A DNA stretch of 58,164 bases, taken from Candidatus Gallilactobacillus intestinavium. Its GTDB lineage: Bacteria; Bacillota; Bacilli; Lactobacillales; Lactobacillaceae. Shown in pieces: positions 14,592-16,477 of this stretch (the stretch's first letter is position 1; each line of letters begins with the position of its first letter). The translations under genes and the position numbers were made by a program. The notes under the pieces were generated by a model that was given only the letters and a program-made list of their open reading frames with translations, was not told where the DNA came from and searched no databases. The DNA is taken from NCBI GenBank assembly GCA_017694665.1, contig JADIMP010000053.1, positions 1 through 58,164 of the forward strand. The letters run 5' to 3'.

Positions 14592-15059
14592 TTATTTTTT
14601 TGAAAATTTATTATTTAGATCTGTTTTAACGACTAATACATCACATATTGCTGTTCTAGTTACATATTCTGTCACTGAACCAATTAAAATTCTTTCTACG
14701 GCATTTAAACCTGTAGCCCCAATCATTATTAAATCTGTATTTAATTGTTCAGGAACATCGTGAGCAATTATATTTTTAGGAGATCCATATTCAATAGAAT
14801 ATTCGCATGAAACACCAGCATCTTTAGCTTGTTTAGCATATTCCTCTAATGTTTGTTTAGCTGTTTCTGTAACTTGTTCTACCATAGTTGTATCAAAACT
14901 GGAAATACTTTGAAAAGCTCTTGTATCTACAACGTGTAATAAATGTAATTTAGTTTTATCACCATTTCTTTGAGCAACTGATACAGCCTTTTTAAAAGCT
15001 AATTCTGCTTCTTTAGAACCATCAATAGGAACTAAAATATTTGAGTATTCTTGTGCCAT
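14592..15059 (-). CDS. usp: Universal stress protein, ATP-binding type
   Basis: This is a 155-residue UspA-fold protein. The nucleotide-binding signature G-x2-G-x9-G-S is complete in 'GATGLNAVERILIGS', placing it with the ATP-binding MJ0577-like subgroup. 'NILVPIDGSKEAELAFKKA' at the N-terminus is typical. AGGATGTGATC forms the ribosome site. It is the distal gene after a small membrane-protein gene and the structured RNA at 15404-15632, the arrangement described for Lacto-usp RNAs in lactic acid bacteria. Confidence 0.96.
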   Translation of the reverse strand: MAQEYSNILVPIDGSKEAELAFKKAVSVAQRNGDKTKLHLLHVVDTRAFQSISSFDTTMVEQVTETAKQTLEEYAKQAKDAGVSCEYSIEYGSPKNIIAHDVPEQLNTDLIMIGATGLNAVERILIGSVTEYVTRTAICDVLVVKTDLNNKFSKK

Positions 15060-15128
15060 TAGATCACATCCTTTATATTTCTTCTAACTTAATTTTACTG
15101 TAAAAATAATAAATGTTAAATTATATGA

Positions 15129-15401: not shown

Positions 15402-15436
15402 TTTAATAAAAATGGCGAGTTTAATGAACTCGCCAT
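15402..15436 (-). terminator. Intrinsic terminator of the structured RNA
   Basis: On the minus strand a GC-rich 10-bp stem (15436-15427 with 15421-15412) with a 5-base loop is followed by five T residues and an A/T-rich tail. It ends the RNA 19 bases before the start of the small membrane-protein gene. Confidence 0.93.
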
Positions 15437-15632
15437 CCAAAGAAAACTTTGTAATCGATAAGTACCGACATAACAGCTCTTACAAGTTGACCTGCATTAT
15501 GAGCAGAAATAAATTAATCATAAAAAATTTTGATTACCTAGAGAGGCTTATCATCATAGTTTATTAACTAATTTTAATTATTATAGTTGTAAGGTAACGT
15601 TGATAACTGAGCTGTGCGTATACTTTAGATCT
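15404..15632 (-). ncRNA. Lacto-usp-like structured RNA (possible 6S-type RNA)
   Basis: About 230 bases between rpsD and the membrane-protein/usp pair hold no gene but have RNA hallmarks: an extended -10 promoter, a final intrinsic terminator and nested complementarity. On the minus strand an outer helix pairs 15615-15610 with 15478-15473, and next to it 15593-15587 pairs with 15485-15479, enclosing small hairpins, including a CTGC/GCAG one. The place upstream of a hypothetical gene and usp in a lactic acid bacterium is that of the Lacto-usp RNA motif, which has been suggested to be the 6S RNA of these species. The identification rests on synteny and hand folding, not on a covariance search. 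Confidence 0.72.
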
Positions 15633-15638
15633 GAATTA

Positions 15639-15647
15639 AATATAACA
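15639..15647 (-). promoter_or_regulatory. Extended -10 promoter of the Lacto-usp-like RNA
   Basis: The minus strand reads TGT then TATATT (15647 to 15639). The -35 region is not convincing; it falls in the T-rich tail of the rpsD terminator. The start would be near 15632. Confidence 0.5.
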
Positions 15648-15661
15648 CATAATTGTGATAA

Positions 15662-15694
15662 ATAAAAAAACAGGTACATTAGATACCTGTTTTT
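15662..15694 (-). terminator. Intrinsic terminator after rpsD
   Basis: An 11-bp stem (15694-15684 with 15676-15666) with a 7-base loop is followed on the minus strand by T residues (A run at 15664-15670 on the plus strand). Confidence 0.9.
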
Positions 15695-15698
15695 CTTA

Positions 15699-16307
15699 TT
15701 ATAGTTTGTTGTAGTATTCAACAATAAGAGCTTCGTCAATGTCAGCATCTAGATCTTCACGTTCTGGCAAGCGAACTAAATGTCCTTTTAATGATTCAGC
15801 ATCAAAATCAACATAAGATGGACGACTAACTACTGATTCTACAGCTTCTTGAATTGTTACCATTTTTTTTGACTTTTCTTTAACGGCAATTTCTTGTCCT
15901 ACATTAACTTCATATGAAGGGATGTCGACGCGTTTACCATCAACGGTTATATGACCGTGGTTAACTAATTGTCTAGCTTGACGTCTAGTAGTTGCTAAAC
16001 CTAAACGATAAACAACGTTATCTAATCTTCTTTCAAGTAAAATTAAGAAATTATCACCGTGAGTACCTTTTTTAATTTTACCTGCTTTAATAAATAAATT
16101 AGAAAATTGACGTTCAGTTAAACCATACATAAAACGTAATTTTTGTTTTTCTTTTAATTGAAGTCCATATTCTGATAATTTTCCACGGCGATCTTTACCA
16201 TGATCTCCAGGTGCATATGGTCTTCGTGAAAGTTCTTTTCCTGTTCCTGAAAGTGATACGCCTAAGCGACGTGATATTTTCCAGGAAGGACCTGTATAAC
16301 GAGACAT
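15699..16307 (-). CDS. rpsD: 30S ribosomal protein S4
   Basis: S4 binds 16S rRNA and starts small-subunit assembly; in Firmicutes it also represses its own gene by binding its mRNA leader. The 202-residue protein starts '[10 protein letters not shown]' after GGAGGTT; an in-frame upstream ATG five codons earlier lies before that ribosome site and was rejected. The S4 RNA-binding domain is visible at about residues 92-155 ('[20 protein letters not shown]'). It is monocistronic, with its own promoter, leader and terminator, divergent from ezrA. Confidence 0.98.
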
Positions 16308-16477
16308 ATATATAACCTCCAAAAAAATTTGTTGGAGTAAAAATGCGTGTAGATTCAGTAATCGTACAGATTAATCTAGAGCTTTCACCAATGCAGCTAA
16401 AAGGTTACTAACTAATCTAGTTATTAAGTGAATTAATCTGTTGACGTTTTTACCATCTACTGCTGCAAATTTACAAC
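16308..16477 (-). promoter_or_regulatory. rpsD 5' leader with possible S4-binding pseudoknot
   Basis: The 170-base leader contains no gene. Two crossing 6-bp complementarities are seen: 16349-16354 with 16455-16460, and 16392-16397 with 16462-16467. This is an H-type pseudoknot topology, and a small hairpin lies at 16410-16422 inside. Autoregulation of rpsD by S4 through a pseudoknotted leader is established in Firmicutes; the pairing here is by eye and short helices can arise by chance. Confidence 0.55.

Follow-up and report, generated by a model that had tools for sequence, protein, structure and literature searches.

A predicted, divergent 6S RNA gene beside usp in Candidatus Gallilactobacillus intestinavium

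Results

Genes and features of the locus

The window analyzed here is the whole 58,164-nucleotide stretch of contig JADIMP010000053.1 from the draft genome of Candidatus Gallilactobacillus intestinavium. Between rpsD and the universal stress protein gene usp it contains a predicted free RNA of approximately 195 bases with an extended -10 and an intrinsic terminator, followed by a small membrane-type ORF, which is also found at this position in several relatives (Table 1). The gene order in relatives is rpsD, rarA, 6S, small ORF, usp and ddl, and the window has the same order without rarA, so that rpsD is directly upstream of the RNA. A single rarA-type gene was found in the genome, a paralogue on another contig (C57:1696-2934) that shares 36% identity with the rarA linked to 6S in relatives. 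By comparison, identity between the linked rarA of another genus and that of Furfurilactobacillus is 64-68%. The linked rarA seems to have been lost or to be sited in the missing part of the draft genome, which is 91% complete. In one other small genome (G017, L022 1000-1464) rarA is likewise absent from this locus and a 154-aa ORF is located between rpsD and 6S.

Table 1. Features of the rpsD-usp region, in window coordinates.
Feature	Position	Strand	Basis or remarks
rpsD	15699-16322		S4 domains; upstream neighbour of 6S
Extended -10 (TG T TATATT) of 6S gene	15639-15647	minus	Read from sequence; relatives' -10 boxes
6S RNA (ssrS), predicted	15438-15632	minus	Covariance model made without the window sequence; ends estimated; R1 match 15634-15449
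Outer closing stem P1, 5' strand	15617-15628 (3' strand 15456-15467)	minus	9/10 pairs kept; two compensatory changes vs L029
Closing stem P2, 5' strand	15609-15615 (3' strand 15473-15479)	minus	Outer helix of first-pass annotation plus one pair
5' central bulge with start of pRNA template	15577-15595	minus	Aligned to relatives' CCGAACA/CCTTACA block
Predicted pRNA GUAAGGUAACGUUG	15589-15602	plus	6S RNA as template; GG at 5/6, adjacent A
Apical arm with terminal loop, AU-rich in this genome	15509-15576	minus	Folding and pair comparison
Hairpin opposite central bulge (CTGC...GCAG)	15491-15507	minus	5/5 model pairs in window; 100% of alignment cells paired
Intrinsic terminator, 12-pair hairpin then T-rich tail	15404-15438	minus	-16.2 kcal/mol, z -6.14
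Membrane-type ORF, 84 aa	15129-15383	minus	No Pfam family
Promoter-like element of usp (TTAACA-16-TAAAAT)	15092-15119	minus	Scan; -10-like hexamer conserved
usp, universal stress protein	14592-15059	minus	PF00582, E 3.1e-32

Promoters and terminators

The extended -10 described in the first-pass annotation is present on the minus strand (TG at 15647-15646, TATATT at 15644-15639), and relatives carry TATGCT- or TAGACT-type -10 boxes at a similar distance upstream of the start of their 6S RNAs. The -35 of the 6S gene is weak. The rpsD terminator (15666-15694) immediately precedes the 6S promoter, and since its T-run overlaps the expected -35, promoter function seems to depend on the extended -10. 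A promoter scan of the window returned counts at chance level, and the promoter calls therefore rest on conservation. The intrinsic terminator of the same annotation was likewise confirmed as a strong hairpin (15438-15410), and terminators are found at the same place after the 6S RNAs of relatives; a simple pattern scan did not return this hairpin, which was taken as a limit of the scan. No catabolite-responsive (cre) site was found near the RNA and the window-wide count of such sites was at chance.

A -10-like hexamer approximately 28-32 bases upstream of usp was observed in the window and in 10 relatives, and transcription of usp most likely starts at a promoter of its own. A conserved block, TACAGTAaAAT-AAG-TAGAA, is located upstream of usp in the window (15090-15119) and in the Furfurilactobacillus sequences L025, L029 and L030, and in Furfurilactobacillus a AGCGCTTTCA stretch, which is cre-like in reverse, is found just upstream.

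Covariance searches

At the curated gathering threshold no Rfam family was found in the window, including RF00013 (6S) and RF01710 (Lacto-usp), and at an E-value of 10 there were chance matches only, RF00013 also being absent in a local search. The search with these two models had been put forward in the first-pass annotation as a check on its proposal, and neither model matched the window. RF00013 gave no match anywhere else in the genome. Among the other genomes sampled, it detected 6S RNA in 9 of 24 from the family, as against 15 of 16 from elsewhere in the order. RF00013 is insensitive in Lactobacillaceae, and its gathering score is a detection threshold and not a biological feature.

A covariance model (R1) was built from the 6S RNAs of 23 relatives, aligned without the window sequence and with the canonical 6S structure imposed. 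The input comprised RF00013 matches from members of the family and the order together with syntenic stretches of Furfurilactobacillus, Lactiplantibacillus, Liquorilactobacillus and Ligilactobacillus. In this alignment the canonical structure gave 146 double-change cells as compared with 55.6 in shuffles. When R1 was run against the 1.28 Mb genome a single strong match was obtained at 15449-15634 on the minus strand, covering model positions 1-188 of 188 with 62.3 bits and an E-value of 6.7e-15; R1 E-values are rough, as calibration was short, but this does not affect the gap of 51 bits to the next-best match (11.2 bits). By this model of sequence and structure the RNA is homologous to the 6S RNAs of relatives which RF00013 recognizes. 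Across 301 family genomes R1 gave one match each in 209, covering 28 of 40 genera.

About a dozen genera of the family had no R1 match (g4, g9, g14, g24, g41, g46, g48-g50, g54), and still more divergent 6S RNAs may be found there. A more divergent 6S RNA has been reported for Weissella (PMC8414754).

Secondary structure and pRNA template

The minus-strand stretch 15647-15404 folds far better than its shuffles (z -4.44, 0 of 200 as good). A closing stem, a large 5' central bulge, a hairpin opposite and an apical arm were all identified, the apical arm being the weakest part. When the window was included (24 sequences), 86.1% of alignment cells were paired compared with 34-44% when the structure was slid, and there were 172 double-change cells compared with 59.7 in shuffles, although this alignment leans towards the model because it was fitted to it. 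Of the 43 consensus pairs, the window retains 34. In 7 of these both partners differ from those of Furfurilactobacillus L029 and pairing is preserved, and the pairs which are lost fall mostly in the AU-rich apical arm. In P1, 94% of cells are paired over the 24 sequences.

Two adjacent long-range helices had been described in the first-pass annotation. The outer helix (15615-15610/15478-15473) is the conserved 6S closing stem, which extends by a further pair, C15609-G15479, and most of its pairs are formed in about 92% of the folding ensemble. The inner helix (15593-15587/15485-15479, CTTACAA/TTGTAAG) is fully complementary in the window (7/7) but was rejected as a conserved element, as it is formed in 42 of 159 cells in relatives whereas the competing canonical closing arm (TTAtCAA/TTGTAA plus GTT/AAC) is retained in 114 of 173. 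Pair probabilities were 0.10-0.19 for the inner helix and 0.22-0.33 for the canonical arm, which is also slightly more stable (-36.3 compared with -35.1 kcal/mol for the inner-helix fold). The inner helix sequesters the pRNA template and competes with the normal closing arm. We consider it unlikely that this lineage makes use of two nearly isoenergetic central folds, one of them hiding the pRNA start within CTTACAA/TTGTAAG, whose refolding could gate pRNA synthesis and polymerase release.

The pRNA motif was defined according to PMC8414754. The template begins at C15589, with a predicted reading of GUAAGGUAACGUUGAU. The window has GG at pRNA positions 5/6, a feature shared by 22 of the 23 relatives, and in the 6S RNA the base immediately 3' of the pRNA start is an A, which is the case in all 23 relatives as well. 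The first six pRNA bases are shared with the three sequences of Furfurilactobacillus type and with three further relatives. The AA expected at pRNA positions 9/10 stands at 8/9, as it does in the nearest relatives.

Relationship to Lacto-usp

Although the RNA lies upstream of a small ORF and usp, the position known for Lacto-usp, RF01710 did not match the window in any search, whether at the gathering threshold or at an E-value of 10. No match was obtained in 40 relatives either, a result which is uninformative by itself, and the survey was widened to 398 family genomes. Matches were found in just 25 of these, 24 of them in one other genus, and membership in the Lacto-usp family was not borne out for the Lacto-usp-like RNA of the first-pass annotation. 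The link which it drew to this motif was nevertheless a fair one, since in that genus Lacto-usp occupies the same rarA-usp locus. Over all 25 loci, rarA is upstream at 23 and usp is downstream at every one. At every one of the 25 loci the match starts inside the pRNA template, just past GTTGACC, and is followed by GGG(T/A)TCAAC, and these two flanks are 6S central-bulge sequences. Of 19 such loci, 5 gave an R1 match where Lacto-usp lies (E 8e-6 to 0.04), and RF00013 found no other 6S RNA in 10 Lacto-usp genomes. Read most simply, these sequences suggest that Lacto-usp corresponds to the apical arm of that genus's 6S RNA. The RF01710 matches at the rarA-usp locus (L067-L091) extend over this arm alone, and the family as listed in Rfam may be no more than a piece of 6S.

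In 2010 it was reportedly suggested that Lacto-usp might be a 6S RNA. In its main text the motif paper only lists Lacto-usp. An abundant non-coding RNA of L. delbrueckii has already been recognized as 6S (PMC8414754).

Discussion

We assign the gene at approximately 15632-15438 on the minus strand, with a probability of roughly 0.95, as 6S RNA (ssrS), orthologous to the 6S RNA located between rarA and usp in relatives. The assignment is comparative and is based on homology, the conserved fold, the locus, the promoter-like -10 and the terminator. Points against it are the RF00013 score below threshold, the AU-rich apical arm with several broken pairs, the weak -35 and the missing linked rarA. 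The first-pass annotation had favoured a free, trans-acting RNA of the 6S type, and this is strongly supported, the element being 6S RNA itself as judged by the R1 match, the fold and the pRNA motif. So assigned, it is a 6S RNA gene of the kind ordinarily found in lactic acid bacteria, though divergent in sequence and missed by the standard library.

The RNA resembles the 6S RNAs of lactic acid bacteria (RF00013; PMC8414754) in its usp-side locus, rod fold, 5' central bulge and opposite hairpin, in the GG at 5/6 and adjacent A of its pRNA, in the terminator that follows it and in being present as one copy per genome. Unlike these it is too divergent for RF00013, has an AU-rich apical arm and has no linked rarA. 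The nearest relatives among those compared are the Furfurilactobacillus 6S RNAs (L025, L029 and the MAG L030), with which it shares the CCTTAC template block, the closing arm, the type of extended -10 and the position of the terminator, whereas the Furfurilactobacillus RNAs are GC-richer and have rarA between rpsD and 6S. From its published description, Bacillus subtilis 6S-1 RNA is similar in fold type and in the pRNA hallmarks of GG and adjacent A (PMC8414754), and differs in gene neighbourhood and sequence.

Other explanations were considered. That the RNA is a member of the Lacto-usp family, as a motif distinct from 6S, would fit its position before a small ORF and usp and the finding of Lacto-usp matches at the same locus, but we give this almost no credence, as the 6S model matches over its full length where RF01710 has no match, and Lacto-usp itself looks like the 6S apical arm in one genus by its flanks and by the lack of another RF00013-detected 6S RNA in 10 Lacto-usp genomes. 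A cis-acting leader, in which attenuation or antitermination controls read-through into the membrane ORF and usp, is very unlikely. It would account for the placing of the terminator immediately upstream of the small ORF, whose start codon follows the hairpin after 26 bases, and because this gap is too short for a promoter, read-through into the 84-aa ORF may occur. However, the conserved fold closes upstream of the terminator, no antiterminator pairing is evident, the pRNA motif and the locus indicate 6S, and published RNA-seq points to a monocistronic 6S RNA in the order (PMC8414754). Read-through need not be invoked for usp, which is preceded by a conserved promoter-like box of its own; the suggestion that read-through or antitermination feeds usp is unsupported, and conditional antitermination is not indicated.

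It is similarly improbable that the gene is a decayed, functionless 6S remnant in a reduced genome. Its R1 score is the lowest of the 24 sequences compared, although the higher scores of the other 23 are partly by construction because they built R1, and the broken apical pairs, the small genome and the loss of the linked rarA would also be in keeping with decay. Against this, compensatory changes, an intact pRNA template, a promoter -10 and a strong terminator have all been retained.

6S RNA is a small RNA which restrains RNA polymerase when nutrients run out. If the gene in the window is 6S RNA, the free RNA of approximately 195 bases would mimic an open promoter and bind the housekeeping sigma-A RNA polymerase holoenzyme, mainly in stationary phase. 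On the return of nutrients the polymerase would use the 5' central bulge as a template, starting at C15589, and the resulting short pRNA (GUAAGGUAACGUUG...) would open the closing arm so that the polymerase is released. Both sigma-A RNA polymerase binding and pRNA templating would be expected here from established 6S biology.

The result fills in a 6S RNA for a genome that has none according to the standard model. This would tidy annotation without changing the biology, as the 6S RNAs of lactic acid bacteria have been catalogued and their location at the rarA-uspA locus was described throughout Lactobacillales in 2021 (PMC8414754). It also allows a direct comparison in favour of the view that Lacto-usp, though listed as a separate motif, corresponds in one genus to the 6S apical arm, and if Lacto-usp is 6S, the expected pRNA start in Lactobacillus would be GAUCGGUCAAC.
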